Shown here: positions 6,816 through 47,670 of the stretch, one piece after another
Position numbering within the stretch: position 1 is the first letter of the stretch
Layout: each line of letters starts with the position of its first letter
Assembly: GCA_034670405.1 (NCBI GenBank)
Contig: JAXDDX010000071.1
Location: 192,001 to 256,000, forward strand
Reading direction: 5' to 3'
Origin: Hoplostethus atlanticus
Taxonomy: Eukaryota > Chordata > Actinopteri > Trachichthyiformes > Trachichthyidae
Length of the DNA: 64,000 nucleotides
Program-made: the position numbers and the translations under genes
The notes under the pieces: model-generated
Told to the model about the DNA's origin: nothing
Seen by the model: the letters and a program-made list of their open reading frames with translations, nothing else
The model's database searches: none

Positions 6816-6839
<24 letters not shown>

Positions 6840-7380
6840 TTTCAATGAATTACTGATTATGTAAAAGTTTAACTTTAAAATGTGCAGGCTTCTGCAAGGT
6901 GCCTAATTCAGGACCTCGAAATCATGGTTAATATCACAGGCTAATCGGCTGATTCCTGAAGGTGAGACTGCTTCAATTATTGTGTAATTTGTGTTTAAAA
7001 TTTTTCTTGAACGTTAATTTTCTTCCTCGCCTATCTAAATAGCAAGTCAGGTCTTTGAACATGCCTGAACAGGTAGCTAGCGGTTAGCCAACATCATACC
7101 TAGCTAATGGAGCCACGGAGGGCTCACCTCTGCCAATAGCAATGTTAGCTAGTTAGATAACTTGATGTGACCGATCATACTTGTGTCAGTGCAGCACTAT
7201 GTTACTAAACTCTATACTCGTTGGTTTATTATCTAACTCATTTTCTGTTTGTTTACTCTTGCTCTGTGTTGTAGTACAAATCATAGCTAGCCAGCTTGTA
7301 CTTGTTAACTTACAATTTGAACTGTATAACGTTAGCATAATGTAACAGTCGAGTACTCCTATGCAGACAGGATGTTGTGA
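6816..7380 (+). repeat. Dispersed repeat, copy A (pairs with 23930-24485)
   Basis: After a short (TA)n run, about 550 bp are nearly identical and in the same orientation to 23930-24485. Shared landmarks are TTTCAATGAATTACTGATTA at the left and CTATGCAGACAGGATGTTGT at the right. The left boundary cuts the BEL 3' LTR, as expected if this repeat inserted into it. No coding potential or terminal inverted repeats were seen. Family unknown. Confidence 0.85.
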
Positions 7381-7795
7381 AGAGTTTATTCTTGTTTATT
7401 TCTTCACTACATTCAGACATTTAAATGACTCCATTAAACAATAAAATAGCATTTATTATATATTAATTTCTATATATTGTGAATTAAGAATGTAACTTTT
7501 CAGTAACTGCCTGTTATGCTACATATAGATTTTAATTTTCATGTAAAACAAACATAACATAAAAAAAACATTTCATAGCGCTACAGCGTTACAACAGTAC
7601 AGCACACTTAATTTACTCATTATATTAATACCTCTCAATTACACACTTAAATGGCTTATATTATATTCTTAAATATTAGGACCAAAGAATGAATAACACA
7701 AATGCACTGCAAATATAAATAAATGCTAAAATTAAATTAGACCAACAAATAAAACAAAAAGTTTTTGACTCTGGTACAAGCTGATATCAGGATGT

Positions 7796-12149: not shown

Positions 12150-15000
12150 ACCCCCCCGATGATGCCACAGGAAGTCAGGGTTTGACAGTTTTGTCAGTGG
12201 TGTAGTTTTCCACAACAAATTAACAATATTCTGCCTTATTACTTTCAGCCTGATTGAAAGGAAAATTCCACCCTCTGATTGATCCTCTTACAGTGTTAGA
12301 TATCATCAATCTGTGCTACAATACATTATTATTTTGTGTTGTAAATGATCTAGTTGAGATAGAATTTATGTACAGCTTGTTTATAGAATGAGATATCTAA
12401 GTGACACATAATCCTGAGAGCAGAAAATTAACCCAAATGATAGTACTTTTTAAAGGACAGTAGGCAACATAAGTGGTTGACTAAAGGAGACATTTGGACT
12501 ATGGACTGGATCCTCTGGATCCTAGAGCAGAAATGTGCCCGCCCTCTTTTCCAGTGCCTGTTTCCAGAATTACATTTCCCATTAATTTTCTCCGTAGACA
12601 TTTGAAAATCAAATATAAAGAGTTTTAAACTTTGAACTGAACCAACCAGCTACCAGATGAATCATGAGCTCATGACAATAGATTCAGATAAAATATATAT
12701 GAAAAATGAAAAAAGGCAAGACTGTGTACATTTTAAGAGGGAACAAACTACTCATCTCATACCGTATTAAGCGTGACACCTTCAATTACCTTTGTCTCAT
12801 TTTCAACAGTGATACTAAATAATGTAATAGTGATTAATGATTTTCATAGTGTCTGACAGTAAAGCCATAGGGGAGTGGCACCAGCCACAATGCAGGTTGC
12901 TAGCCGACTAATGTTATTTCGCTCTGGTCTGGCTACGCACAACTTTGCAGCATTTCCATGCTAACAGCAATGTCTCTGATTGGTGGGAATTCACTAAAGG
13001 TTGTGGGTAGTGTCGTTTTTCAGGAATAAAACGTGATTTCTAAACTATGAAAAAATAAAAATCAGATTGACTGATGGTCTACACTGTAAAAATATTAAGG
13101 CACTTCAATTTCAAAACACAAGTTGCTGCCTTAACATTGCAAACGGATTGTAGTAGTAGTAGTACAGAACATTTGGGTCAAAGTTCACTAGTTCTAATGT
13201 AGTAAAACTGACTGAGGGAACTTAAGACAAGTTCTATAAGTGTATTACTGTTATTTACTCTTTCACTAGTGAGAAGCTGTTTAGAGTCAGTTGTTCATGT
13301 GTCACAAAATTATTAAACCATGTGATAAAAACTAAGCAGCTCACTCTGCATTAATGCAAGCACAAGAAGCAGATACTATGTGCCTTGTCTAACTAAATGT
13401 GTAAAATTTGCAGAGTATCTGATGTAGGGATTGAAATGGATACTAATTTTCATTGCGGTTATCAAGATTTTGAATCAGAAGTCGACCTATGATTCACCTA
13501 AAATGCACACAGGGCAAATCTCCCTCCTATAACTTTATTCAGACAAGAAGGGTTTCTTTAGAGTTAACTCAAGTTCAATGCATGCTGGGAAGTATGCTAA
13601 TAATCTAACACTGTTTCTTATTAAACATTAATGTGATCAGTTTAGTGAATGCTCGGTAAGATGTTCTTTCAACTGATCATTTTAAGAAGATGATAATTAG
13701 AAATCATAAGTTGATCTTGCCTTACACTGTGAAAACGTAATGGATAATAATCCAATTGGAAATTGACTGCTGTATCTCGATGTTTCAGTTCCATAGAATT
13801 CACATCATTTGCATCACATCATGGTTTTTGTTGTTGTTGTTGTTGTATTTTGTCCTGGGAACAGTCTGAATGTCGTCATTAGGGAAGTGTGTGACGTTAG
13901 TCAATAGTGTAACTCTGAACCACTTCCCTGCTTCTTTCAGTGTTGTAATGATTTATCAGGATCTCTGCTTCGCCACAGGATCTTTCTACATTGGTTAACA
14001 CACACACACACACACACACACACCGCCCAAATTGAGTTTTGTGTTCATCTTTGAGTATTGTTAATATTACTTTGCAGCATTTGTGTAAAATAAGTATTTC
14101 TGAAACTGACTCACAGCTCAAATAAATTGAATGAATGAATTTGAATGAATGCAATTTCATAATGTCAATGCATTTCAAATGTGTTAGTCAGCATTTAAAT
14201 GACAAATTAAATTAAACAATTAAACGCTATCTGGTTGCATAACAGTCAGACATTTCAAACCATGCTCAAAAACATGAAACCTTAGGTTTTATGAGATAAG
14301 ATTAAATTGATTTTATCCAAATACATAAACACATTTTCAAGAAAGAAAAGTGTCTGACTGTAATTATTCTTGGTGTATTTTCAATACATTTCTGTGAATT
14401 TTGTATTAATAAGGTGTTTTTAATGTAGGAGTCTTGGAAGAGGAGCCCATTTAGGCTAAAAAATAATAATAAAAAGAGAAGGAGTGTGTCATGATTGCAG
14501 GTTGCAGGTTCTATCTCGGATTTGAAGCAACTTCCTTCCAAAATTAGGCAGCGTGTCGAAATGTCCAGGTGATGAGAAATGTACCAAGTAACTTCCTTAT
14601 AACTCTGATCAGATGCCTACATGCAATGAACGACCACAAGCTTTTTTCACAAGAACTTATAAAATTTAGCAGAGTTGAGTCAGAGAGAGTGATGCATTAT
14701 TTTAGTTACCACTGGTAGTGATTTTCATTCATCTAATAGTCTATACTTTTCAATTTAAAAGTCACACCTATGGTATCTTTTTGTTATTTTATTAATTTTT
14801 AGCATTTTATTACTTAGCAACAAGTTAATTATGTGTTGCTTTTTTTAAAGCAATAAAAAATATATATCAGCACGAGTTGCTTTATTGATCCATAAAAAAA
14901 AAAACAAAAAAAAAATTCAGGCTGATAACTGAAAATGTGTATTGATCTTGTTTTCTCAAGGTTGCTGCGGGAATTATTTTTCTAAGTCCAGATTTAGTCG
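12150..15000. other. Intergenic stretch without recognised gene
   Basis: No supportable coding exon was found. It contains the parental block of the 5' duplication (13255-13560), a (GTT)n run near 13830, a (CA)n microsatellite at 14000-14023, and AT-rich unique-looking sequence. A segment at 12440-12510 resembles one at 8345-8415 inside the metalloproteinase gene (ACTTTTTAAAGGA and a following GACTGGATC), probably a short dispersed repeat. Confidence 0.6.
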
Positions 15001-15226
15001 TGGTGGCTGTATCATAGACATATATATGACGTATATATGTCTATGCACATAGACATATACTTTCAATTTAAATGTCTATGCACATAGACATATATACATA
15101 GACGCCGCATTGGCCTGTGGATCGTACGTAAACGTCGCCGCCATATTGGTTCGGACAAGACTGGCCTGTAAACAAATACAAGTAAACGGGGAGCTGCGGT
15201 TTTTCTGGATGAAAAGCACTACTAAC

Positions 15227-15437
15227 TGTCATATATTGGGATATATAGGGTTTGACAGTCTGTTACTGCCACCTATTGGCGAGAGCCGTACTTTCAGGTA
15301 GAGTGAGGCCTGAGGGTCACCTGTCGTATGAGTGCGGAATAAACGTGGTGACTGTCCCATGACATGCTCCAGTCCGTCTCCTGTCTGATTCAATGTTGTA
15401 GCACAGAGTACAGTTAACACTCTTACAAGACACAACA
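15227..15437 (+). repeat. Gypsy 5' LTR
   Basis: The 211-bp repeat begins TGTCAT and ends CAACA. It is preceded by the CTAAC target duplication and followed three bases later by the primer-binding site. It contains AATAAA within GTGCGGAATAAACG, a possible poly(A) signal. It appears identical to the 3' copy. Confidence 0.95.
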
Positions 15438-15634
15438 AAGTGGCGACGAGGATCGTCGAGATCTACGTGTGTTTCAACGCTCGTCAAGGAAGATTTCGAG
15501 TGGACTGTTTGCCGTGAATGCTAGGCTATCAGATTAGCATTGACTTCACCGTCGGGAAGACGGCAGCGTCGGCAGCGAAACCAGTTAAGCTAAGGAGCGT
15601 GAGTACTTGCTAATAAGCAGCTAACAAGGCTAAA

Positions 15635-16780
15635 ATGACGGGGATACTAGGGAACATTGGCCCCTTCGATGAAAATACGGAGCAGTGGAACTCCTATACG
15701 GAACGTTTTGACTACTTTGCTAAAGCAAATGGCATTGAAGGTGATAAGCTTGTGCCGACGTTCTTAAGTGTAATGGGACCTAAATCATACAATTTGCTGC
15801 GTTTCCTGGTCCAGCCAGACAAGCCTGGGACCAAAGGCTTTGACAGTATAGTGGCTACCTTAGCAGCTCACTTCTCACCTAAGCCTCTAGTGATTGCTGA
15901 GCGTTTTCGCTTCCATAAAAGGAACCAAGCGGAAGGGGAGTCTGTAGTAGTGTTTGTGGCTGCGCTAAGAAAGCTAGCAGAGCACTGTGAATTCAAAGAT
16001 GTGCTGAACGACACCATAAGGGACAGTGCACTTACCTTGGATAGAGCTATTGAAGTGAGCGTGTCAATGGAACTAGCTGCCAGGGAGGCTCATCAGCTAA
16101 GTGAAAGTGGAAAACTGCACAAGGTCTCCACCGATGAAAAGGGAGCTCAGAGCAAATGCTATCGATGTGACAACACTGGACATTTTGCGGCTGAGTGTTG
16201 GAGCAAGGATGTGGATTGCAGGAAGTGTGGAAAAAAGGGACACATTGAACGGGCATGTAAAAGTAAGGGAATGAACAAAAATCCAAGAGAGGACAACAAA
16301 AAGCCAAAGCCCAGATTCCAAAAGAGACAGTCTGTACATAGTGTGCAGTCAAGCCACACTACGGCTGGGCCCAACAGCTCATCTGATGAGGCAGAAGTGG
16401 GTGTACTGTCAGTAAATGGTGGTCCAGATGGATACTGGGAAACTCCACTGCTGGAGGGTAAACCAGTGCGCATGGAAATTGACACTGGTGCAGCAGTCTC
16501 CCTGGTATCTTATGCTGTCTACAAAGAAACCTTGCAGCACCTTCCATTACAACCAACCAGCCTCAAACTGAAAACCTACACCGGTGAGTCGGTGCCGAGC
16601 AAAGGCGTCGTCAATGTTGTAGTCCAGGTGAATGGCCAAACAGCAAAACTACCACTGTATGTGGTTAATGGAAACTTTACATCTCTGCTGGGCCGTTCGT
16701 GGCTTGAGAAACTCAGTCTGGACTGGCCCACCAGGAGGAAATTAATCACTTCTGACAACTGTTGTGAACAAACATGCTGA
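15635..16780 (+). CDS. Gypsy Gag-protease ORF
   Basis: The 381-codon frame starts about 200 bp after the 5' LTR. The N-terminal capsid-like region includes the ITGILGNIGPFDENTEQW-type start seen in fish Gypsy Gag. Two CCHC zinc knuckles start at residues 175 (CYRCDNTGHFAAEC) and 195 (CRKCGKKGHIERAC). A retropepsin site, DTGA, begins at residue 283. The frame ends with TGA at 16778. The reverse transcriptase starts 24 bp later in the same frame. Between about 16755 and 16800 the connector makes better sense in another frame, so this stop is probably a small compensated indel rather than a programmed signal. That point is an inference. Confidence 0.85.
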   Translation: MTGILGNIGPFDENTEQWNSYTERFDYFAKANGIEGDKLVPTFLSVMGPKSYNLLRFLVQPDKPGTKGFDSIVATLAAHFSPKPLVIAERFRFHKRNQAEGESVVVFVAALRKLAEHCEFKDVLNDTIRDSALTLDRAIEVSVSMELAAREAHQLSESGKLHKVSTDEKGAQSKCYRCDNTGHFAAECWSKDVDCRKCGKKGHIERACKSKGMNKNPREDNKKPKPRFQKRQSVHSVQSSHTTAGPNSSSDEAEVGVLSVNGGPDGYWETPLLEGKPVRMEIDTGAAVSLVSYAVYKETLQHLPLQPTSLKLKTYTGESVPSKGVVNVVVQVNGQTAKLPLYVVNGNFTSLLGRSWLEKLSLDWPTRRKLITSDNCCEQTC

Positions 16781-16804
16781 GGTGTTCAAAGAGGAACTTG
16801 GGAA

Positions 16805-17686
16805 ATGAAGGACATAACAGTCAACCTGAACATCAAGCCTGACAGCAGACCGAAGTTCCTGAAGGCTAGACAAGTTCCCTACGCCATAAAGCCGAAAGTT
16901 GAAGCAGAGCTGGAATCCTTGGTCAAGAGTGAGGTGCTGGAGCCTATCAGCAGGAGTGAATGGGCCACTCCCATCGTACCAGTCATAAAAAAAGATAACT
17001 CGGTGAGAATCTGCGGAGATTTCAAAGTCTCCATAAACCCAGTGCTAGAGGCTGAGCACTATCCACTTCCTCGCATTGAGGACCTGTTCACTGGCTTGGC
17101 GGGAGGACAAAAGTTCAGCAAAATTGACCTCAACCAAGCCTACCTCCAGATGCAGGTCGTCGAGAAGTCAAGAGAGCTGCTCACGATAGTCACTCACAAG
17201 GGCCTCTACCGATACCGCAGACTACCCTTTGGGATAACCTCGGCTCCAGCTCTCTTCCAGCGTGCGATGGACCAGATACTGTGCGGCTTAGCTGGAGTCC
17301 AATGCTATTTGGATGACATACTGGTCACCGGGAAGACAGAGCAAGAGCATCTGAAGAATCTGGATGCTACCCTGCAGCGACTGGAAGAATATGGACTCAG
17401 GGTCCGCAGGTCAAAGTGTGAGTTTTTTCAGTCTTCAGTTGAGTATCTGGGACACGTGATTGACTCGGAAGGTTTGCATAAGGCTCCGTCCAAAATCAAG
17501 GCAATCATGGAAGCACCAGCGCCTCAAAATGTGAGTCAACTACGGTCTTATCTGGGGCTCCTCAACTACTACGGGAAGTTCATTCCAAACCTGTCTACTC
17601 TACTGAGACCACTGCACCTGCTGTTGTGCCACAGCAAAGCCTGGGAATGGACTGTGCGATGTGAGGCTGCATTTGTGCAAATGTGA
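16805..17686 (+). pseudogene. Gypsy reverse transcriptase, 3' part cut off by insertion
   Basis: This frame contains the Gypsy reverse-transcriptase blocks: an ATPIVPVIKKD segment, KIDLNQAYLQM with the first catalytic Asp, LPFGITSAPALFQRAMD, and the YLDD box at 17306-17317, all intact. It then runs into an inserted LTR-like element at 17682 and meets a stop inside it at 17684. RNase H and integrase resume at 20267 in a compatible frame, so the insertion alone separates the two halves. The polyprotein cannot be made from the DNA as it stands. Confidence 0.9.
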
Positions 17687-19151
17687 CCCACTGCAAGAGT
17701 GAGGTCAGATAAGACCGGACAACGCCACCGTGGGAGTTTCACCCAAGGAAATATCTGTATTTTTGATGACCAGAAGAGTTTCCCCAAGACACAAGTAAGT
17801 AGGGACAGTAGAGCCAGAGACGTGATATTCAAGGCCCGATGGGCAATTTATTTCAAAATAGAGCGAAGACGAAGCTGGGGATAAAGGTCGGAGTTAAAAC
17901 AACAATTTTATTAAACAATCTACTACAAAACAATATTAAAATGCGGAGGGAACGCTAGGGAGTGCTACTGACTGCCACCAGAAATAATAATAAATGGAAG
18001 GTGGCTGACCGACTGTAGGGATCATACCTTGGACCAGGGGACCGACCGTATCACCGCCACGCGTGCTCCAGGGTGTCAACATGCGCGCACACACACAAAC
18101 ACCGCAAACACACACACACACACTGCAAAAGAGTGAAGAAAAGGGTGTCAGTGCACTGGATTAACACTAAAACAACGCCATGCAGTGTGAGGGAAGAGAA
18201 CCCGGTCCTGGAAGAGGCCTAACACGTATGGTCAACCAACTGCTCCAAACAAAAGGAAATAAATTAATCAAAAACAAGAGATGCAAAAATGACAACAACT
18301 ATCCAGTAAATAAAGAAAACACAAAACAACATTACACAGAAAACGCTGGCGCAGTCAGCATACTCTTTTACATTTGCCCAATAAAATATATTCATGGCGT
18401 ACCGGCAATACACAGGTGAAACCAGCCTTTTACCCTGACATAGATTTTAGGAAAAAGCAAAGCAGCAGCGGCGATGTCCTAAAAGACAGACGATCGCCTG
18501 TTATTTATACAAAAGCGTAATCGTCATACATAATACAAAGAAGTCTGGCCGCCAACATTACCTTTACGGTAGCGCTACCTCCCGCTGCGCAATGGATACC
18601 CCGAAGCACCTATAAGACAGTCATTTGGTAAATCTGGCCCGTGCACGGATCGCCTAGTGCAATACAAGGGGATTGTCTATATAGGAGGAATATTGCCCAT
18701 ACAATACCTGCTATAGTAGACAGCAACCCAGAGTTTACCCGCCGGGGAAACACAACAGCCCGTGACACCTGTTCCAACAATAAAATGGTAAGACCTCAAG
18801 CCACATTATACCCAATAAAAGCAAACCCAATAGTAGACATACCTCTTAGCAGCGATCGGCTCTACACAATGCCACGGCACAGGGAAACCAGAATTCAGGC
18901 TTAACCATAGCGTGTCTTACCTGGGGCCTGTTCCAAGAAGCGGGTTTAGTGAAAACTCTTGAGTTTGGTAACCCTGAGATGAGGGAAACTCTGGGTTTTC
19001 CGTTCCAGAAAGAGAGGTAACTCAAACTCTGATTCAGTTACCATGGTAACTGACTCTGTGAACCTAACCTGCTCGCTGGCAGGTTTTCTTGAACAAACCC
19101 TGACTTTCTCCCTGTCTCCTCCCTCTGCTGAATCTGAAGCAGCTGTCGGAC

Positions 19152-19394
19152 ATGGCGTGTCCTTTCCTCGGTAACCCGATCGATATTCAAGCGGAAGTAA
19201 TTTGCATAGCCTTATGTCGGGAGAGGATTTTGAGACCCCGATTAGATGTTCTATGTCCAGGATGGAAGAGCTGTCCGAGATATAATATGCCGTTTACAGT
19301 TCACGGATTAAGCTACCACCACCCCGAGCAGTCAAATAAAGACACCTTTCATTTGGTCTTCTTTATTTCCTACAAATACAAACGCAACAGTTAG
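19152..19394 (+). pseudogene. Harbinger transposase N-terminal exon, degenerate (copy 1)
   Basis: The first 20 or so residues resemble the start of HARBI1-like transposases (DIQAEVI... then an Arg-rich RERILRPRLD block). The rest is short, runs into a stop at 19392, and no DDE catalytic domain follows inside the element. The copy is non-autonomous and would need a transposase from elsewhere. Confidence 0.65.
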
Positions 19395-19524
19395 TATTTT
19401 TATATTGTTCCAACAACACATTTCACCTGTGACCATGCACCCACCTCTAACTTATGTTCGAGTAATTACATTTCTAGATCTGCCTTTCTAATTTGCCGCC
19501 CCAAGTACACCATTTGAAGTATGT

Positions 19525-19652
19525 CTGGTCCAGACAGCTCAGTTGGTAAAGCAGGAGACTCTCAGTCTCAGGGTTGTGGGTTCGATCCCCACATAATGTT
19601 AACTATCACCTTTGTAAGTCGCTTTGGATAAAAGCCTCTGCTAAATGACTTA
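19525..19652 (+). mobile_element. tRNA-Lys-like SINE inside Harbinger copy 1
   Basis: The head resembles tRNA-Lys, with box A AGCTCAGTTGGTAAAGC (19536-19552) and box B GGGTTCGATCCCC (about 19578-19590). Its anticodon-loop region reads GACTCTCAGTCTC where tRNA-Lys(CTT) has a CTTAA core. The tail, GTAAGTCGCTTTGGATAAAAG and following, is the 3' end shared by many teleost SINEs and L2-type LINEs. The tail and the lack of tRNA-like pairing at the ends show it is not a working tRNA gene. Confidence 0.8.
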
Positions 19653-20277
19653 TGTTTTTATATTTCATTTTCAGCTGCTGCCAAGTGCGCTTTGCGCCCG
19701 TGGGATTGCACCTAAATGAAAATATTTTTTTCCCAATACCATTCCACCACTTTTTCACATGTAGGTAATATTATAAGAAAGTGTGGTTAAATGTTAAATG
19801 AATACACTACTGCATTCAAACGTACGCATTGACTCGGGCAGCGATTCTCTCCCACGCCAATTCCCTCTCCTTTACGACCCTTCTGCTTGCTGGTTGCCAT
19901 GGTGAATCGTAGTATCGGACCTCCATTGATGATGGCTTTTTATTGTCGTCGCGCACGCGCTTAACTCAAGGTGAACATACTCAAAGTTGATTGAACTAAC
20001 TCAAATCAGCCGTTCTGGAACCGAAAACTCAGATTTGGCCATCTCGGAATTAATCAACTCAGAGTGCAGGGTTAGACTCAGTGTTTGCTGAACCTGCTTC
20101 TTGGAACAGGCCCCTGGGGTATATATACGCACTCTGTAAACAAGCTAATTGCTTGATACTTCGCCTCTCCGCCCCGAAAACTATGGGGGGGGCGTGGCTG
20201 CAGGAACTACGGCAGCCGAGTAGCTCCGTTTGTAGAGACTGGAGCTATTTCTACCGGTTACACAAACAAAAAAAGCG

Positions 20278-22134
20278 TTGCTAGAATCTGATGTCCTGAC
20301 ACACTTTGACCCCACACTGCCCCTACAACTCGCATGTGATGCTTCCCCTTATGGGGTGGGGGCAGTTGTTTCTCACATTATGCCCAACGGTGAAGAGAGA
20401 CCTGTCGCGTTCGCCTCACGCACACTCAGCAAAGCCGAGAGCAACTATGCACAAATCGAACGAGAAGCGCTGGGGATTGTTTTTGGTGTCAGAAAGTTCC
20501 ACCAATATCTCTTTGGGAGAAAGTTTTTGCTCCTGACAGACCACCGCCCCCTGACAACAATCTTCGGGCCCCATACCGGCATTCCATCCTTAGCAGCTGG
20601 TCGGATGCAGAGATGGGCCTTGCTGTTGTCTGCCCACGACTACGACATCAAATACCGCAAGTCTGAGCTGCATGCAAATGCAGATGGCCTCTCTAGACTA
20701 CCCCTGCCAATGGACCGGGGTGAGCCATCGCAGGCCGGCATTTTCTACTTCAGGCAAGTGGAGGTAGCTCCAATCACTGCTGCTCAAGTGAAAAGGCACA
20801 CCCACAATGACCCTGTGCTATCTACGCTGATGGATGTAGTGATCAACGGAGGAGGTGTGGATCTTCCTGAGCTAAAACCCTACCTCACAAGGAGTGAGCT
20901 CTCAGTGCAAGCAGGATGTCTCCTATGGGGACGCAGAGTGATTATTCCACCTGTGCTGCAGAAGGGGCTACTACGACAGCTACATGAAGGACACAGTGGG
21001 ATGGTCCGCATGAAAGAGCTTGCCAGGAGCTACTTTTGGTGGCCTGGGCTTGATGGGCAGATTGAAGAGACGGCAAGGTCATGTCCATCATGTCAACAAG
21101 TTCGCTGCATGCCACAACCAGCCCCTCTTCATCCATGGGTTTGGCCGGAGGCACCATGGCAGCGCGTCCATGTGGATTTTGCTGGCCCGGTTGAGGAGAG
21201 GATGTTCCTGGTGGTGGTAGACGCCCACAGTAAGTGGCCGGAAGTGTCAATAATGAGATCAACCACAGCAGAGAAAACCATCGAGAAACTGGGGGAAATG
21301 TTCAGTCGATTTGGGTTTCCAGAACAGCTGGTGAGCGACAACGGCCCCCAATTCGTCTCACAAGAGTTCGGGAGTTTCCTTGAGGCAAATGGAGTACAAC
21401 GCATCCGCTCTGCTCCCTATCACCCATCTACCAATGGCTTAGCAGAGAGATTTGTCCAGAGCATGAAAAACGCTTTGAAGGCTTCACAGGGACAGGGCTC
21501 TCTCCACCAGCGGCTGAACAGCTTCCTGCTGTCTTACAGGAATGTCCCACACTCAACCACACAGGTTGCTCCTGCAGCACTTCTCATCAAGAGACAGCTC
21601 CGCACCAACCTCGATCTTCTGAAACCACCGAAGACCAAGGAGGTGGTTCGCCAAAAACAACAAGCTCAGGTTGAGAGACGCGGGCAAAGAGCGAAGGAAA
21701 GGACCTTCCGCCCAGGTGACAATGTACTGGCACGTAACTATAACAACAGACCAAAATGGATGCCTGCTATAGTCCTAGAACAGACAGGCCCTGTGTCCTA
21801 TACAGTCCGGACCGCTGATGACATCGTCTGGAGGAGACACACAGACCAACTGCTTGCTGGATCGACGGCGGCTGTGGAAACCCCACCAGTGGTTGGTGCT
21901 GAGCCATCCAAGCAGGACAGCCCAGCCCAGCCCACACTCACCCAGGATGCGCCTTGTGCTATGGAGCCGGTTCCTTCAGGACCCACTTCCGCAGCTGTGT
22001 CAGAGGCAGAACTGTCACCATGTTCCACACCGAAGTCTGTTCCGGCTACAGTCAGCGTGGATCCACCGGATGGCGGTGCTATTCACCGGTATTCACAGAG
22101 AGAGCGGCGGCCTCCTAAACGCCTAGATTTATAA
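20278..22134 (+). CDS. Gypsy RNase H-integrase segment
   Basis: The open frame of about 618 codons continues the Gypsy polymerase after the nested insertion. It opens with RNase H (ACDASPYGVGAV with its catalytic Asp; the LSKAESNYAQIEREALG block), then the integrase HHCC zinc finger (ending CPSCQ), and the DDE core (HVDFAGPV; SDNGPQFVS; NGLAERFVQ). The tail is Pro- and Ser-rich. The TTG at 20278 is only the first possible codon in the frame and not a real start: the protein would be made as part of a polyprotein beginning upstream. The catalytic residues look intact. Confidence 0.9.
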   Translation: MLESDVLTHFDPTLPLQLACDASPYGVGAVVSHIMPNGEERPVAFASRTLSKAESNYAQIEREALGIVFGVRKFHQYLFGRKFLLLTDHRPLTTIFGPHTGIPSLAAGRMQRWALLLSAHDYDIKYRKSELHANADGLSRLPLPMDRGEPSQAGIFYFRQVEVAPITAAQVKRHTHNDPVLSTLMDVVINGGGVDLPELKPYLTRSELSVQAGCLLWGRRVIIPPVLQKGLLRQLHEGHSGMVRMKELARSYFWWPGLDGQIEETARSCPSCQQVRCMPQPAPLHPWVWPEAPWQRVHVDFAGPVEERMFLVVVDAHSKWPEVSIMRSTTAEKTIEKLGEMFSRFGFPEQLVSDNGPQFVSQEFGSFLEANGVQRIRSAPYHPSTNGLAERFVQSMKNALKASQGQGSLHQRLNSFLLSYRNVPHSTTQVAPAALLIKRQLRTNLDLLKPPKTKEVVRQKQQAQVERRGQRAKERTFRPGDNVLARNYNNRPKWMPAIVLEQTGPVSYTVRTADDIVWRRHTDQLLAGSTAAVETPPVVGAEPSKQDSPAQPTLTQDAPCAMEPVPSGPTSAAVSEAELSPCSTPKSVPATVSVDPPDGGAIHRYSQRERRPPKRLDL

Positions 22135-22464
22135 TAGTGACATACCCGGAAGATTGGGGCAGAATAATCCCCAGGGTAATGTCAGGGTCTGAGTAGTCTG
22201 TAACTCATTCCCTTAGAATTGGATAATAAAGAAGAAAAAGACGACTAAAAGATCTGAAAATGTTCTATTGTTCACTGTGGCATAAGGGAATGTTTAAGTA
22301 TGTGTTTGTGATTTTGGTAACTGAACGGTTGTTGATTCCAAGGACTGGACATATTACAGTTAACCATGACAATCTAATTGTTTGAGTGCCAGGTTAGTGG
22401 GCTATTTGTTTAAATGTGTTCCTGGTGTTTAGAGGTGCCACCTGTTCATTAAGTGGGGAGGAGT

Positions 22465-22675
22465 TGTCATATATTGGGATATATAGGGTTTGACAGTCTG
22501 TTACTGCCACCTATTGGCGAGAGCCGTACTTTCAGGTAGAGTGAGGCCTGAGGGTCACCTGTCGTATGAGTGCGGAATAAACGTGGTGACTGTCCCATGA
22601 CATGCTCCAGTCCGTCTCCTGTCTGATTCAATGTTGTAGCACAGAGTACAGTTAACACTCTTACAAGACACAACA
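22465..22675 (+). repeat. Gypsy 3' LTR
   Basis: The 211-bp repeat is preceded by the polypurine tract (22451-22464) and followed by the CTAAC target duplication. By eye it shows no difference from the 5' LTR, which implies recent insertion or gene conversion. Confidence 0.95.
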
Positions 22676-23929
22676 CTAACGTTTACATTTCTCAACCGAT
22701 TTCAATGAGTCGTTTTATATTCAAGGGTTTATGATCTACGTGCAGTACAAAAAAAAGTTTTGTCTCCAGTTACGTAGAATCTCGATAGTTAGGCTATAAT
22801 CGCTGTGTATCAACTCTTTCTCTTTGGGAAACCTTCAAAGTGTGAGAAAAGTTAGCTAGCCAGCTAACTACAGTCAGATTCATAATATGTCAGCCGCTTA
22901 GCCGAAACGAGTAGCTTGTCATAAAAATCGGTTTGGAGAAATATAGATATATAAAAATAGATGAAAATCTCGATAGGCCATTTGAATTTTCCTTCTTTAT
23001 TTGCCCTCTGGGGATCAATAAAGGCGTATCTTATCTTATAATAGTCTTTGTCTGTAATTGTCTGTCTTGGAGTATATCTGTATCCTTTCACTGCTATAAA
23101 AATATAGAAAGCAGACTGACTGCCAGTGTCTCACTATTTTAATTTGTATTTGCCGATTTTGTTCCATTTTTCTCAATGATGGTCAATTATTAGTACTTAA
23201 AAATGCGCTATTTAGATCCCCCCCAGTATTTTAAAGTGAATGAGCTATATTCTGACCTGGAGCACAAGAAAATCTAAAATGATGGGGACATGGACAGAAA
23301 AATAACTTTCTGCACATTTCATGTACATTAAATTATATTATGTATGGACGTCTCCACAAGTATAAACCAAGGAAAATAAGCCAAATCCATGCTTGACAAA
23401 CCTGAGTTTTTACAATGCCTTATGACAATGAATTATTTTCCACCACGTAAGTAATTCAGTTCATGTAAGCCTAACGTTGACACTGCTCTCTTGAGCGTCT
23501 AGCAGCGATTATAGCCTAACTAAGTAACTGGATACAAAACTTTTTTTTGAACTGCACGTAGATCATAAACCCTTGAATATAAAAAAGGACTCATTGAAAT
23601 CGGTTGAGAAATGTAAACGTTATAGTGATTTTCATCCATAAAAACCGCAGCTCCCCGTTTACTTGTATTTGTTTACAGGCCAGTCACCAATATGGCGGTG
23701 ACGTTTACGTATCGTAGCAATGGGCAGAAGCAGTCAATGCGGCGTCTATGTATATATGTCTATGCATATGTGTCTATGGGCTGTATGTAATCAGTCCGTG
23801 AAAATTAGCTGACTAAATTATTGCCTGGCTGTAAAAAATGATTTCTTGACACAATTTATGCTTCATATTTCATTTATAACGAATATATTTATTTATATTT
23901 TTTCATCACATATAATCTAGCATTCGAAA

Positions 23930-24485
23930 AAATATATATTTTCAATGAATTACTGATTATGTAAAAGTTTAACTTTAAAATGTGCAGGCTTCTGCAAGGC
24001 GCCTAATTCAGGACCTCGAAATCATGGTTGATATCACGGGCTAATCGGCTAATTCCTGAAGGTGAGACTGCTTCAATTATATCGTCTAATTTGTGTCTTT
24101 GGTGTTTTAAATTTTTCTTGAACATTAATTTTCTTCCTCGCCTATCTAAATAGCAAGTCAGGTCTTTGAACATGCCTGAACAGGTAGCTAGCGGTTAGCC
24201 AACATCATACCTAGCTAATGGAGCCACGGAGGGCTCACCTCTGCCAATAGCAATGTTAGCTAGTTAGATAACTTGATGTGACCGATCATACTTGTCAGTG
24301 CAGCACTATGTTACCAGACTCTATACTCGTTGGTTTATTATCTAGCTCTTTTTTTCTGTTTGTTTACTCTTGCTCTGTGTTGTAGTACGAATCATAGCTA
24401 GCCAGCTTGTACTTGTTAACTTACAATTTGAACTGTATAACGTTGGCATAATGTAACAGTCGAGAACTCCTATGCAGACAGGATG
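23930..24485 (+). repeat. Dispersed repeat, copy B (pairs with 6816-7380)
   Basis: About 550 bp are nearly identical and in the same orientation as 6816-7380, with a few single-base and small indel differences. It begins inside AT-rich sequence after the foldback element and ends about 60 bp before Harbinger copy 2. There is no coding frame of note. Confidence 0.85.
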
Positions 24486-24758
24486 TTGTGAAGAGCAGGG
24501 ACAACTTCATGTGTAAACTCAAAAGGACAACGTAACTGACTACGTGGGGCCCGTTCCAAGAAGCAGGTTCAACAAACTCTGAGTCTAACCTGCACTCTGA
24601 GTTGATTAATTCCGAGATGGCAAAGTCTGAGTTTTCGGTTCCAGAACGGCTGATTTGAGTTAGCTCAATCAACTTTGAGTATGTTCACCTTGAGTTAAGC
24701 GCGTGCGCGACGACAATAAAAAGCCATCATCAATGGAGGCCCGATACTACGATTCAGC

Positions 24759-24925
24759 ATGGCAACCGGCAAGCAAAGATCGGCGTACTTCACCCTACTG
24801 GAGTTAGAACTGTTATTAAATGCTTATCGGGAGTATGAACCAATCTTTAAAAAGAAGAGCAACACAGCTGCAGCGGCAAAGCAGAGGGAATTGGCTTGGG
24901 AGAGAATCGCTGCCCGAGTCAATGC
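24759..24925 (+). pseudogene. Harbinger Myb/SANT-like protein, first exon (copy 2)
   Basis: From ATG at 24759 the frame reads MATGKQRSAYFTLLELELLL, then a Lys-rich turn, then ELAWERIAARVNA. This is a Myb/SANT-like trihelix start with the Trp of the third helix. Harbinger elements encode such a DNA-binding partner that helps import and target the transposase. The frame runs to a possible GT donor near 24925; later exons are absent. Copy 1 has lost the middle of this exon. Confidence 0.65.
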
Positions 24926-25085
24926 GTACGTTTGAATGCAGTAGTGTACACGTTTAACATTTAACCACACTTTCTTATAATGGTGGAATAGTATTGGGGA
25001 AAAAAAATATTTTCATTTAGGTGCAATCCCACGGGCGCAAAGGGCTCTTGGCAGCAGCTGAAAATGAAATATAAAAACATTACAT

Positions 25086-25213
25086 TAGTCATTTAGCAGA
25101 GGCTTTTATCCAAAGCGACTTACAAAGGTGATAATTAACACTGTGGGGATCGAACCCACAACCCTGAGACTGAGAGTCTAATGCTCTACCAACTGAGCTG
25201 TCTGGGCCAGACA
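25086..25213 (-). mobile_element. tRNA-Lys-like SINE inside Harbinger copy 2
   Basis: This is the reverse complement of the SINE in copy 1, so relative to the Harbinger both have the same position and orientation. Box B (GGGTTCGATCCCC) and box A (CAGCTCAGTTGGTAGAGC) are clear on the minus strand, and the box A here is closer to a real tRNA than in copy 1. Confidence 0.8.
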
Positions 25214-25340
25214 TACTTCAAATGGTGTACTTGGGGTGGCAAATTAGAAAGGCAGATCTAGAAATTTAATTACTGGAACATAAGTTAGAGGTGGGTGCAT
25301 GGTCACAGGTGAAATGTGTTGTTGGAACAATATAAAAATA

Positions 25341-25583
25341 CTAACTGTTGCTTTTGTATTTGTAGGAAATAAAGAAGACCAAATGAAAGGTGTCTTTATT
25401 TGACTGCTCAGGGTGGTGGTAGCTTAATCCGTGAAGTGTAAACGGCATATTATATCTCGGACAGCTCTTCCATCTGGACATAGAACATCTAATCGGGGTC
25501 TCAAAATCCTCTCCCGACAATAAGGCTATGCGAATTACTTCCGCTTGAATATCGATCGGGTTACCGAGGAAAGGACACGCCAT
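25341..25583 (-). pseudogene. Harbinger transposase N-terminal exon, degenerate (copy 2)
   Basis: It begins MACPFLGNPIDIQAEVIRIA like copy 1 but switches frame a few codons later, so the Arg-rich block of copy 1 is read differently here. The downstream part (PRYNMPFT...HGLSYHHPEQ) is shared. No catalytic domain follows within the element. Confidence 0.65.
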
Positions 25584-26143
25584 GTCCGACAGCTGCTTCA
25601 GGTTCAGCAGAGGGAGGAGACAGGGAGAAAGTCAGGGTTTGTTCAAGAAAACCTGCCAGCGAGCAGGTTAGGTTCACAGAGTCAGTTACCGTGGTAACTG
25701 ATTCAGAGTTTGAGTTACCTCTCTTTCTGGAACGGAAAACCCAGAGTTTCCCTCATCTCAGGGTTAACAAACTCAGAGTTTTCACTAAACCCGCTTTCTG
25801 GAACGGGCCCCTGGTGTGTCGGTGAAGCTCTGATATGAGCCATTATCTCTTGCGTCGAGAAAATGTCACACCACTCTCCATTCAGAGACTTGGCAATTTA
25901 GGTTCTACCAACCTGCTTGGTAGATCAACAGAATGCCGATTTTACCAGAGTAATAGTACATTTGCCAATAAACAAGGCAAAAAAACAAACTGAATTTTGA
26001 ATGGAGTGTGACACTCGAGAGAACGTCACAGATTGGGGCTAGTGTAGGTGTAACCATAGGCCATAAAATCATCATCTCTTTTTAACCATATAGTTGACAT
26101 GCATTCTTGTGTATTTTTTTCCCTAGCTAAGTGCCTTTCAATC

Positions 26144-26341
26144 ATGGGCGTGCGGAGATTCTGGGATAACTACAAAGTCTTGCTTGTTATGGGTTCAAGT
26201 CTGGCACTGATACACTGGGGATGGTACACTCTTAAAGCAAACCCGGTACTCCGTAAAGACAGAGAAGAGTATATTCCTGAGCCTGGGATTGTGGCTTACG
26301 TTTCACCAGCTGCTTCCACATCTCCAGCCAAGACAAAGTAG
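26144..26341 (+). CDS. Unassigned 65-aa single-pass membrane microprotein
   Basis: The ATG at 26144 lies 18 bp after a good 3' splice site (TTTTTTTCCCTAG ending at 26126), so an upstream non-coding exon is expected. The product starts MGVRRFWDNYK, then a hydrophobic segment of about 17-20 residues (VLLVMGSSLALIHWGWY, residues 12-28), then a polar, Lys/Glu/Pro-containing tail ending SPAKTK. A short basic N-terminus followed by one membrane span is the layout of many mitochondrial inner-membrane assembly microproteins, but I do not recognise the family. A plausible donor (GAG|GTATTA) lies just after the stop at about 26352. It may instead splice earlier. Its shape resembles the next ORF. Confidence 0.55.
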   Translation: MGVRRFWDNYKVLLVMGSSLALIHWGWYTLKANPVLRKDREEYIPEPGIVAYVSPAASTSPAKTK

Positions 26342-28391: not shown

Positions 28392-31300
28392 TCACAGTAT
28401 AAAAGGAATAATTGCTTTCCTGGACTGGGGATAATCCTCAAATTTTTGTTTGTAGTACCTGAAAAGAGATAAAAGGATTAACTTTTTTTAGGTTTAACTA
28501 TTTGCACATATGATAAAACAAATAGGAGAAATGTTTTAACATAAAACTGAATTTCTCCATGAGAACATATTCATTAATTAATAATAATGATATAAAAATA
28601 AATTAATTGCAAAATAACAGAAGTAGAGCACACTGACACAGAAAAAAAAAAAGAAATAATGTAGAATGAAAATGAACAAAATCTATAAATATCAGGATGC
28701 ATGTAATATATCACAAATATGAAACTTAAGAGATATAAATAATGAACCAGAGAATAGAAGAGATAGAGAATGGAGAAAGAAAATATTAAATAGCCCTGAT
28801 GCAGAAAATAAAATAAAACTAATTTATCACTCAGCCTATGGAGGCAAGCAGTTACTAGAGGAGGACTAGGCTACTTGTGGTGGCAGTACGCCCTCGGCCC
28901 AATGGAGCAGATGGTGAAGAAGGCGAAGGAGAACGTAGGTAAAGACCATGTAGCGACAGCATAACCACACCACTCGAGTATCTCCCCCAAGAAGTTTGCA
29001 CCAGACACAAACTCAAACATTCCCCCTGAGACAAAGAGAAGAGAAATTGAACAAGTTAAAGCTGTACGGGGCAACTTTGCACGTTGGCGGCTCCAGATGG
29101 CAGCAAGAAGTAAGTGTTTAAAAAAAAATTGAACTTCAATACCCAGAAATCCTGTAAGGCGATGTCAGTAAACTACACACAGCTCGTTACCAACCTGGCC
29201 GGTTTGTGATGCTTTAAAGCCGCGCTACTCAACACGCGGCCCGAGGTTAGTATTATTGCGGCCCTTGGTTGAATTTTTATTGTCATAGCAACTGCCGACG
29301 CTTTGCATGGATCATGTGAAAGCCCGAACTGTGCAGGAAGTCTAGCCTCGCCTACTCTCAAGTCATGGCAAAACCTGGCAAAACGTAACATTTCTGATGA
29401 ACACAGGGTATTTCAAAAAACATGGGAGGAAGACTTCGCTTTTGTTGAGGTAAATAACAAACCAATGTGCCTTCTTTGCCAGAGAACAATAGCAGAACCA
29501 AAACGGGCAAACGTTCACATCACCATGATATCTATCACATTGACTTGGAATTACATATCCATCTGGGAATAATTTGATATACTCAGACCTGATTTCAATT
29601 TAGTATGCCTATATTTATTTTATTAAACATTCTTGTGATTTATTGCAACAGCAATCTAACACTTTTACATTTAATGAATAAAGCCTACTTATTGTCATTT
29701 AATCATTTGATATCCATGTGGCTTGAAATAACACTACAAAATAGCTTTATATGACCAAAAAATTTGCGTTGCGGCCCTTTGACACAGCTGTATCTTGCTG
29801 TGTGGCCCTTGAGCTATGTAAAGTTGAGTAGCCCTGCTTTAAAGGCACACGAGCGAGAAAAGATCTAACGAGTCCAGCCTTGCTGTTTTGGAGTGAGTTT
29901 GTATTTTGATTTTTCTGACCCCCGATTAACTTGGAAAGTTGACAACACTGTGAGCAACTTGGTTGATGGGTTGCTCTATGATGACCGATTGTGGGCGGGG
30001 CCAGAGGGTCCGATTGAATCTGTAACGGTCTGCAACCACAAAGTTTTGAACGAGCAAATTGTGTTTTTCGCTGCTTTGGGATTGCCTGTCATAACTTTAT
30101 ATCGTTATGTCGCGAAATATTTTAGAACCCCTGGCTTGTACAGACAGAGCCTCCCGGGACTTAAGGACTTCACACATCAGCACATGATCAAATACTAACT
30201 GTAAATACTAACAGTAACGCTATAATAATTCTACGAAGCCGGAGTGTGTGTGAGATGAGGGTTACCATGGGGAATCCTGTAGATGGTCTCTCCAGGTTTT
30301 CTCAAGCTGCGAAGGATGTGGTCGCTGTGGATGTTGATGCCCATACCGAGGAAAAACAGAAGTAAACCTGAATAAACAGGGACAATTATACAGTTTATAT
30401 ATATATAGTAAAGTTTATATAGTTACAAACCTGTGCTCTCCTACAGAGATAAAGTGCAGAAACTGATAAAGTAGTGTAAAATGCAGTAGATAGATACTTT
30501 ACATTACATTACATTACATTACAGTTATTCAGCAGACGCTTTTATCCAAAGTGACTTACAATAAGTGCATTCAACATAGGTAGGCAAGAGAACTACTAGT
30601 CACCAGAAATCATAAGAGCATTTCCTTCCTAGAAGCATCTAAGAGCAGAACCAGTGCTGATGTAAAAGTGCAATAAGTTAGCTACCTACTTTTTATTTAA
30701 ACAAATAAGACAAATAAGTGAAGCTAATTTGCAAGAGCTAAGAGGAAGGGTCAGGGTAGTGTTTCTAGAAGAGGAAGGGTCAGGGTAGTGTTTCTTGAAG
30801 AGGAAGGGTCAGGGTAGTGTTTCCTGAAGAGGAAGGGTCAGGGTAGTGTTTCTAGAAGAGGAAGGGTCAGGGTAGTGTTTCTGGAAGAGGAAGGGTCAGG
30901 GTAGTGTTTCTTGAAGAGGAAGGGTCAGGGTAGTGTTTCTTGAAGAGGAAGGATCAGGGTAGTGTTTCGTGAGGCGGAAGGGTCAGGGTAGTGTTTCTTG
31001 AAGAGGAAGGGTCAGGGTAGTGTTTCTAGAAGAGGAAGGGTCAGGGTAGTGTTTCTTGAGGAGGAAGGGTCAGGGTAGTGTTTCTAGAAGAGGAAGGGTC
31101 AGGGTAGTGTTTCTTGAAGAGGAAGGGTCAGGGTAGTGTTTCTAGAAGAGGAAGGATCGGGGTAGTGTTTCTTGAAGAGGAAGGGTCAGGGTAGTGTTTC
31201 TAGAAGAGGAAGGGTCGGGGTGGATGGATGGTACATGTATACAGAGTTAAAGAATAGTAATGGCTGAATGAATGTGAAAGGGAATGAGAGTGGCTAAAGT

Positions 31301-31620: not shown

Positions 31621-34600
31621 GGGGCAGCCACTAAGAGACAATACTAAAATGAAACATAAAAACAATGTGCAACCGACTGTTTTGCAATGTGCAAAATGTC
31701 TCTCTGAAATTATGTTAACATTACATCCAAATGAAGTACCGTACCTAAAATACCAAAGTGCAGATAGTTACAGTAAATACCAAAGCTGATAGTGTTGGTG
31801 GGACTCATCCACGCCAAAATAAACGTCTCCAGCAGTTATTGTATAAAATTGTATGTGGCGTACACCAACTAAAACGCAGCACTTGATCATCAAGTGTGGA
31901 TGGACCCCGTTCATAATAGCTGCCCTCACCTGTGCCTGTATATATCTATGGAATCAGGGTTGTGCCAATATAATCAAACAAAACTTCTTAAAAATCAAAC
32001 AAAAATAAGAATTTGAGAGAGAATAAAACTCACTGAAGCCAAAAAAAATGTCAAGCACAGAAAAAGGAGAGAGCTGGCAGCGCAACCGCAAAGCTGACAG
32101 AGGGCAAAAGTCTGATCAGTGAGAAAGAAGCAGAGGGAACTGTAAAACAAAAAAAGTATCATATCAAAAAAATAAAAGACCAATAGTTTACACAATTATA
32201 CAAATAATTTGTTTGCAAGTTATAAGTTTTACTTTTGAGATGACTTTTTTTTTGGTTTCCGTGAGTTTTATTCTCTCTCAAATTCTTATTTTTGTTTGAT
32301 TTTTAAGAAGTTTTGTTTGATTATATTGGCACAAACCTGATTCCATATATATCCAGCCAAAGTGTGTGTGTGTGGGGGGGGGGGTGGCACAAACATGGCC
32401 TACTCCCCAGTCTGGGGCTGCAATAGTGCACAGTTGACATCCACAAATTTGAAACGTTGCAACTCGTAAACGTCCCATCACAATATGCTTTTCCATGTTA
32501 TAAAGCACAGTGTTCCACCATAACTTAATCTGAAGGGAGGCATGAGTGCGCCAACAAATGAGTGCATTGTTACCAGGGGCGTCGTTACGCACCATTTACT
32601 ACACCATTTTTGCATTGTGTCCAATGTGGTTAATTTGAGACTTAAGCTCATTTTCAGCCTGATAGATTCATGATACAGCAGGCTTGTTTTACTAAACACA
32701 TCTGTACTTTGTCGATGTTTACATATATACATAAACTACATAAAATCCATCCCCTTACACTGCTGCCAAGATGAAAGCGTACACAAGTACAGACAAATAT
32801 CTGTACTTTCAATCTGGGCAGCAACAAGTTCATGCCTGTTCTCTGGGGGTTCAGGAAATCACTCTCAAGTATAGGCAGACAAGGCAGGTTGAGGGAAAGT
32901 GGGTATAATAAAAAAGTCACACTGGCACAAGGAAGTTTTTGAAAATGTATGTCAACACTAAGGTCATTTTAACCAAATCATTTTCCAGAGGAAACCGATG
33001 GTGTACCCTTTAACCTTTACTAATTCCTGAAATCATATGATATCAATTCCTCATTCAAAACTACGTGCATCTGTCCCAATTATCAACAACTGGATCAATA
33101 TTCATCAAGCTGTCAATTAGAAAACAAGTGGAAGAAAAGCTGACAGATGGTAAATTTGTAGAAGTGTTGAATTACTATTGGACCAGGTTCAAGAGCAGTA
33201 GACACAATGTGATGACAGAATCACAATGTGATCAACCTAAGAGTAGTATACTATCACAAATCAAAGCGGTGTGCATGAAAACACGCTTATTGATAGATAC
33301 AGCAAATTCTGCATTCAGCCAGTAACTGTGACATGAAGACATCAGCACTGTCTCACATACTCTGAAAGGGAGACACTGTGTTGTGGACAGGAATAATGAC
33401 AAGACTAAATTGGACACACTATTTTCACCTAGTCCTGATCCAGGACCCTTTGGGAGTCTTTCATCATATGGCTGTTTACCTCTCCCAGAGGGTCCTGTCC
33501 TGCTCCGTTGACTTTTTACCGCACGAAAGTCAGCGAGCCCGAAAACGAAACCAATACGTCTAATTTCACTGACCTAAACAGATGTGGCGGCGGGCGGCGC
33601 TCCGCGCTCCATCTCCTACGCACAAATAAACTTGTATACTTAAAGACAGGTATAGTCCAACATTTCCATTGTAATGAAATCCAAGATGGCTTCTTCGGCA
33701 CTTTGCGTCCGCGCAATATGCATGCTGCTTATTGCGCCAAGAGTTTGGGGTGTCTGTCAGCCACAAGTGAAGGATTATGGACATCTGTAAGTGAAATTCG
33801 ACGTATTGGTTTCCTTATCGGGCTCGCTGACTTTCGTGCGGTAAAAAGTCAATGGAGCAGTTATATTTTCACCTGTTCGTCACGAGAACGATTAGCTGAT
33901 GGTTAAGTTTGGGCAAGTAAAACAACTCTGGTTAAGGTTAGAGTAAGGTTTTGGTTTTGGTTACATGAGAAAAAACCTTTTCTGAAAATGAAAACTTCAC
34001 TCACAGTAGAAAATCTGTCATGAGTTGGGAAATGAACTTGAGTCATCAGAGTGACTCTGTCCAGCCAACTTCCACACCCTTACTTTTGACCTTATGTCAA
34101 ACTACTTCTTGTCTCTTCTCCTTCCTGGAGGGGGAAACGTATTTCTTTTCACTTTTCACGGAGCACGTTATTCACATTTCAAGACATGAAGACTGGGACC
34201 ACCTCACCCACCAGCAGCGAGGACGAACGTCAGCCAGCGGTGTGTCTTCAAACTGGGCACAGTGGAGCAGGTAGTGTCCCTGCATTAAACCATTGAGCGA
34301 GCAGAAGATGGCACTAAAGACCATTAGAGAGATTGGGAAGGGCCGTCCTTTGGTCAGCAAGGCATAGATGAAAGTCCTAAGAAACATTGACAAGATGAAT
34401 TGTTTTTTGTCAGTTTGACAGTTGTCTACACAAATGTATGGCCTTCTGTAGACCTGCTACATTCTGTATCAGTCTGACATACTGTGTCTTAACCATAAAC
34501 TGTTTCACTTTTTCATCTTTCTTTATAGCACTTTCAGACTGATTGACTTTCTAATCGTATGACTTGACCCCTAACCCTGTAAATATTAATGTCTTGCTCT

Positions 34601-39524: not shown

Positions 39525-39700
39525 TAGGGTGGGGATTTAAACCAGACACCAGACCAGTCCTGCTAAATTACCACCAGGCACCAGACCAGTACTGCTAAAT
39601 TACCTTCAGACACCAGACCAGTACTGCTAAATTACCCTCAGATACCAGACCAGTACTGCTAAATTACAACCAGACACCGGACCAGTACTACTAATCACTA
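39525..39700. repeat. 32-bp minisatellite upstream of psen2, about 5 copies
   Basis: The unit AGACCAGTACTGCTAAATTA followed by CCTTCAGACACC (32 bp) is repeated about five times with small changes. The reverse complement of about two units is found at 41187-41260 in psen2 intron 2. Confidence 0.85.

Positions 39701-39932: not shown

Positions 39933-47670
<7,738 letters not shown>

Follow-up and report, generated by a model that had tools for sequence, protein, structure and literature searches.

Probable carriage of a tRNA-headed SINE by a NuwaI-like DNA element in a five-layer transposon nest of Hoplostethus atlanticus

In nested transposable elements, the order of arrival is generally inferred from one element interrupting another. 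Whether this rule can be followed down to the innermost layer is the question raised by a locus of the fish Hoplostethus atlanticus, contained in a window of 64,000 nucleotides (contig JAXDDX010000071.1, positions 192,001 to 256,000; all coordinates below are those of the window). At this locus, an inverted-repeat DNA element contains a Gypsy retrotransposon, which contains an insertion resembling a long terminal repeat (LTR), which contains a DNA element with GGGGCC ends, which in turn carries a short interspersed element (SINE). The five nested layers were found at 15079-23766 after re-reading positions 14000-25000, searching for repeats and running a self-BLAST of the window (E 1e-4; 99 pairs listed). 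Every feature named in a preliminary description of this DNA was recovered near the coordinates proposed there by self-BLAST, domain and Rfam searches. The nest of transposons one inside another is real, and fairly ordinary in kind. It probably comprises five layers but only four insertions at the site. In the reading favored here, to which a probability of about 0.87 is given, four successive insertions took place and the SINE was brought in as cargo of the GGGGCC element, referred to below as NuwaI-like. Copies of every layer were sought within the window, and paralogous copies and protein relatives were used as empty-site controls.

The evidence on the two innermost layers came from a second copy of the GGGGCC element, which carries the same SINE and was absent from the preliminary description. 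The copy inside the nest (copy 1) occupies 18924..20113 on the + strand (1,190 bp) and is flanked by CTG duplications at 18921-18923 and 20114-20116, with the terminal repeat taken to begin GGGCC; its GGGGCC ends are at 18923 and 20114. The second copy was found outside the nest, 4.4 kb away, at 24547..25810 on the - strand (1,264 bp). When the GGGGCC end motif was searched with up to 3 mismatches, 4 matches were obtained in the window, whereas 100 shuffles gave 0.08 on average. These four matches are the ends of the two elements, and a GGG start was present in 4/4 of them. The two copies were 93.5% identical over 963 columns and 95.7% identical over 231 columns in the self-BLAST. Since they are inverted, 4.4 kb apart and about 93-96% alike, the second copy could be thought to derive from duplication of the locus from the nest, or the reverse, instead of transposition. 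This origin is exceedingly unlikely, because the match between the copies ends no more than 5 bases from the terminal repeats on both sides, the flanks are unrelated, and each copy lacks a stretch that is present in the other in the alignment. The second copy also sits in unrelated DNA, outside the LTR-like sequence, and the GGGGCC element (layer 4) is thus, as judged from the sequence, separate from the LTR-like insertion (layer 3).

The SINE (layer 5) spans about 19529..19656 on the + strand (ends approximate) in copy 1. Its head matched the Rfam tRNA model RF00005 at 19536-19592 (33.3 bits versus 29) and its tail matched the UnaL2 stem-loop RF00436 at 19601-19654 (62.3 bits versus 55), in agreement with the SINE that had been placed in the GGGGCC element beforehand. 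The head may be of tRNA-Lys origin, as stated in the preliminary description. No tRNA genes were predicted in the window by ARAGORN. In the second copy, the SINE was located by alignment and Rfam at about 25080-25207 on the - strand, at the homologous position. Hence, the SINE has the same position and strand in 2/2 of the NuwaI-like copies of the window, whose flanks are unrelated, which argues that SINE and element travelled as one unit. The SINE probably joined the element before the jump to this site and would be cargo, not the last event.

A strict outside-in order of the nest would instead place the SINE last, inserted into the NuwaI-like element when this was already in place, with the SINE of the second copy acquired independently or by gene conversion. 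The SINE is indeed the innermost layer, and gene conversion is conceivable between copies 4.4 kb apart. Nevertheless, this order is very unlikely. Besides the position and strand common to both copies, the divergence between them is similar inside and outside the SINE (7/126 ungapped columns in the SINE versus 38/1,038 in the backbone; Fisher P = 0.32; gaps not counted); gap events amounted to 2 in the SINE versus 7 in the backbone. A recent conversion of the SINE alone predicts a SINE more alike than the backbone, which was not seen, nor did the flanks of the SINE show a fresh target duplication. The claim of the preliminary description that the sequence of insertions follows directly from the nesting stands for the outer element, the Gypsy, the LTR-like insertion and the GGGGCC element, but most likely fails for the SINE, found at the same place in 2/2 copies. 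That description had also considered that two of the layers might turn out to be one element; the GGGGCC element and the SINE form one in the only two copies seen. The other layers are independent of each other, as indicated by the outer arm without Gypsy, the Gypsy relatives without the LTR-like insertion and the second copy outside the LTR-like sequence.

Fish SINEs of the HAmo, SmaI and FokI type have a head related to tRNA-Lys and a tail derived from L2, the latter thought to be recognized by the enzyme of a long interspersed element, LINE (PMC2653535). The SINE of this locus is similar to them in general plan, with a tRNA-like head and an L2/UnaL2-type tail; it differs in lying inside a DNA transposon and in showing no clear target duplication. 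The titles and abstract openings of the papers listed on SINEs carried by DNA transposons described no such case, which does not imply its absence from print.

The GGGGCC element had previously been named a Harbinger. Its ends were confirmed and its placement in the PIF/Harbinger superfamily is kept, but an assignment to Harbinger proper is not favored, as the CTG duplication and the GGG ends point to the NuwaI group. NuwaI belongs to the PHIS superfamily, produces CWG duplications, has ends usually beginning GGG and is reported from 16 animal genomes, 12 of them of bony fish; most of its autonomous candidates carry genes for a DDE transposase and for a Myb/SANT protein. PIF/Harbinger proper has AT-rich target duplications (PMC4482050). 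The element described here resembles NuwaI, going by that description, in its GGG ends, the CTG (CWG) duplication of the nested copy, a Myb/SANT remnant and the bony-fish host. It differs from NuwaI in its size of about 1.2 kb, in the lack of a transposase domain in the fragments scanned, in carrying a SINE and in the imperfect duplication of the second copy. The Myb/SANT remnant (PF13873; 24759..24935, + strand, Pfam E 2.1e-8) reached 34.4 bits versus a curated cut-off of 21.7 when 24759-24932, in the second copy, was scanned.

A Myb/SANT protein occurs in Harbinger too, and PIF/Harbinger proper belongs to the same superfamily, so that the remnant of the second copy could also fit a PIF/Harbinger element proper. 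This assignment is unlikely given that the duplication of copy 1 is CTG and not AT-rich as in PIF/Harbinger, and that the ends start with GGG as is usual for NuwaI (PMC4482050). Layer 4 looks more like a non-autonomous NuwaI-like element of the PHIS superfamily on these sequence features. When its end was searched in prokaryote genomes, a single match was obtained, in a bacterial metagenome-assembled genome (L001), and it was set aside, about 3.7 matches being expected by chance at equal base frequencies.

The LTR-like insertion that received the NuwaI-like element occupies 17682..20262, with no strand assigned, between the reverse transcriptase (RT) and RNase H coding parts of the Gypsy. It measures 2,581 bp including its own insert and about 1.39 kb without layer 4, ends in TGTGACC...GGTTACA (TG...CA) and is flanked by CAAA duplications at 17678-17681 and 20263-20266. 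The empty site was examined in the best 120 of 3,205 matches to Gypsy relatives, using position limits set by the analyst. Both sides of the insert were matched by 68 of these 120 relatives, and for 65 of them the matches join at the site with an offset of only -3 to +4 residues. The joined flanks (24 + 32 bases) yielded 18 residues, all of them identical in the nearest listed relative, the protein P0001 from the eel Synaphobranchus kaupii. The proteins of Gypsy relatives therefore run on across the site, which bears out the earlier claim that an LTR-like insertion with a CAAA duplication splits the Gypsy.

This insertion is most likely a solo LTR. Alternatively, it could be a Ginger-like DNA transposon, with ends in TGT and a 4-bp duplication, or some other element, which is considered improbable without being negligible. 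Ginger elements have TGT ends, but their terminal repeats are longer than the inverted match between the ends of this insertion, which covers only about 7 bp and includes one mismatch. On the other hand, the open reading frames (ORFs) above 90 residues in the insertion are only short unassigned ones, nothing in it marks a retroviral origin, and the duplications of Ginger measure 4-5 bp (PMC4482050). TATA-like and AATAAA signals were found on both strands of the presumed solo LTR and therefore decide neither its orientation nor its class. No second place with the LTR-like sequence was detected among the 99 self-BLAST pairs of the window.

The Gypsy retrotransposon (layer 2) extends over 15227..22675 on the + strand, with the 5' LTR at 15227..15437 and the 3' LTR at 22465..22675. 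The two LTRs (TG...CA) are identical (211/211) and the target duplication CTAAC is present on either side. The Pfam search gave the domains in the order usual for Gypsy (Ty3), with protease first, then RT, RNase H and integrase, on the + strand, across three separate ORFs: a zinc knuckle and the protease at 15617-16780, the RT at 16781-17686, and RNase H plus integrase at 20236-22134. The 632-residue 3' ORF reached up to 81% identity over 99% of its length among the 3,205 matches, the value obtained with P0001. Many of the best named relatives are annotated as "K02A2.6-like", and the element may conceivably belong to a mag-type clade. This Gypsy has the same order of protease, RT, RNase H and integrase as the fish "K02A2.6-like" proteins, but it is split by the nest and has a stop between the protease and RT reading frames. 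In addition, the match of the RT part in the relatives P0014 and P0019 starts at 16805, despite the 80 and 140 preceding residues in those proteins. Judging by this stop and by the position at which these matches start, the Gypsy probably carried other damage already.

The outer inverted-repeat DNA element (layer 1) was delimited at 15079..23766, with no strand assigned, by self-BLAST and alignment of its arms. It measures about 1.23 kb without the Gypsy, with arms of about 262-269 bp. The left arm is divided into an outer part at 15083..15226 (+), which ends in the target duplication CTAAC (15222-15226), and an inner part at 22676..22805 (+), which starts with the second CTAAC (22676-22680). 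The right arm, at 23503..23764 (-), is free of Gypsy and constitutes a paralogous empty site. It paired in the self-BLAST with 15083-15226 (E 1.2e-37) and with 22677-22805 (E 2.3e-40). After removal of the Gypsy and one CTAAC, the left arm aligned across the site with the Gypsy-free right arm, so that the outer element serves as its own empty-site control. Together with the identical LTRs, this corroborates the proposal that a Gypsy with a CTAAC duplication splits the inverted-repeat element. The alignment of the arms comprised 233 matches, 16 mismatches and 5 gap events. Possible TA flanks were observed at 15077-15078 and 23767-23768, but they are weak and in an AT-rich palindromic context, and the exact tips of the element are uncertain. 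The ORFs of the interior are all short, and the largest of those listed that lie entirely within it has 88 residues. Exact matches to the arm and end patterns of the outer element and of the NuwaI-like element, and to one end pattern of the LTR-like insertion, were sought in a scan of viral contigs and none (0) was found.

Two further observations were made at the outer element. Adjoining its left tip, at 15013-15097, there are palindromic 35-bp tandem units similar to the tip itself, as though additional tips from this family had built up at that place. Inside the element, at about 22985-23040, a segment containing GGGGATCAATAAAGG and ending in TATCTTATCTTAT was found, which looks like a LINE 3' end and is possibly a further small layer.

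The relative ages of the outer element and the Gypsy were compared by the divergence of their repeats. The outer arms differ in 16/249 ungapped columns versus 0/211 in the Gypsy LTRs (Fisher P = 5e-5); in a core of the arms, picked after viewing the alignment, the values were 7/197 versus 0/211 (Fisher P = 0.006). Because its arms have diverged more than the LTRs, the outer element looks older than the Gypsy, in agreement with the nesting, provided that the arms started alike. The 0/211 differences between the LTRs set a 95% upper bound of 0.014 on their divergence, which corresponds to 0.7 to 3.5 million years at rates assumed, not measured, to lie between 1e-8 and 2e-9 per site per year. The identity of the LTRs thus suggests that the Gypsy is no older than a few million years, although gene conversion between the LTRs or an assembly shortcut would make it seem too young. 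Both insertions inside the Gypsy post-date it; if the age bound holds for the Gypsy, the LTR-like insertion and the jump of the NuwaI-like element are younger still.

Several results weigh against the sequence of four insertions with a cargo SINE. A clear target duplication was absent around the SINE when its flanks were searched in both copies, with one 6-base word in common in copy 1 and none of at least 6 bases in copy 2; this fits an older insertion without proving it, as a duplication may have decayed. Only two NuwaI-like copies were seen in the 64-kb window, and the second is flanked by GTG/CTG, a single base away from a perfect duplication, which makes the NuwaI membership less settled. 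One fragment of each copy, both being presumed transposase starts, was scanned. No Pfam domain, and so no transposase domain, was found in either fragment, and for this reason the element is called NuwaI-like and is not filed as a full member of the group. The fragment from copy 1 had no homologue among proteins of 0.55-1.75 times its length, limits outside which full-length transposases fall. As for the LTR-like step, three of the 68 two-sided Gypsy relatives overlap at the junction, by 10, 10 and 27 residues, and the 52/120 relatives with no two-sided match are uninformative. Finally, the outer arms may have been unlike from the start, and their divergence is then only an upper bound on the age of that element.

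Taking the layers together, the following succession of events is proposed. The inverted-repeat DNA element would have arrived first, and the Gypsy would then have integrated in its left arm, generating the CTAAC duplication. An element with retroviral-type ends would have inserted itself into the Gypsy, between its RT and RNase H parts, with duplication of CAAA, and would later most likely have shed its interior, leaving a solo LTR. The non-autonomous NuwaI-like element, with a transposase supplied from elsewhere, would finally have entered that LTR at CTG. Before this last step, the reverse transcriptase of an L2-clade LINE, acting through the UnaL2-type tail, may have put the SINE in the ancestor of both copies, so that a single SINE insertion would account for the common position; the SINE would afterwards have ridden as cargo of the NuwaI-like element. 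Within this account, the boundaries, the duplications of layers 2-4, the common position of the SINE and the empty sites for the second and third steps were observed, and the enzymes, the loss leading to a solo LTR, the ages and the single origin of the two SINEs are inferred.

Nested transposons are used for ordering bursts of activity, and this locus suggests that the innermost layer is not safely the youngest, since cargo can predate its vehicle; the order inference is the same as in nested elements generally, but in this case the insertion that delivered the innermost layer is probably younger than the layer itself. The identical LTRs would provide a maximum age for the insertions that the Gypsy contains, and this would indicate recent movement of NuwaI-like elements and a possible active source of transposase in the genome. 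It is proposed only tentatively, at slightly less than even odds, that in this fish the SINE has become a permanent component of a NuwaI-like subfamily and that this subfamily was mobile within the past few million years, the latter because copy 1 sits in a Gypsy with identical LTRs. One unit would then join a pair of DNA-transposon ends with a SINE that has its own tRNA-type promoter region and a LINE-recognized tail, and the SINE would be spread both by cut-and-paste and by reverse transcription. Nested transposons are common, and the interest of the cargo SINE is modest.

Additionally, other features were observed around the nest and elsewhere in the window. A repeat of about 560 bp is present at 23932-24495 and 6832-7384 (94.7% identical), with one copy in the interval that separates the nest from the second NuwaI-like element. 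About 330 bp past that element, the segment 26144-26341 contains an ORF of 65 residues (26144-26338), which gave 11 matches; all 7 with an organism name were from fishes, in keeping with a ray-finned fish as host, and the best was a clownfish protein named small integral membrane protein 26; the other 4 bore no name. The loci 30527-31221 and 58361-59598 have about 217 bp in common (87.7%), each adjoining a minisatellite (29-bp versus 22-bp unit), and a match to the UnaL2 tail was located at 59373-59427, within the second of them. An inverted repeat of about 124 bp (92.7% identical) was found at 31930-32053 and 32241-32362, with its arms about 190 bp apart, and the same 32-bp minisatellite unit was present at 39541-39694 and 41187-41255, in opposite orientation and about 1.5 kb apart.

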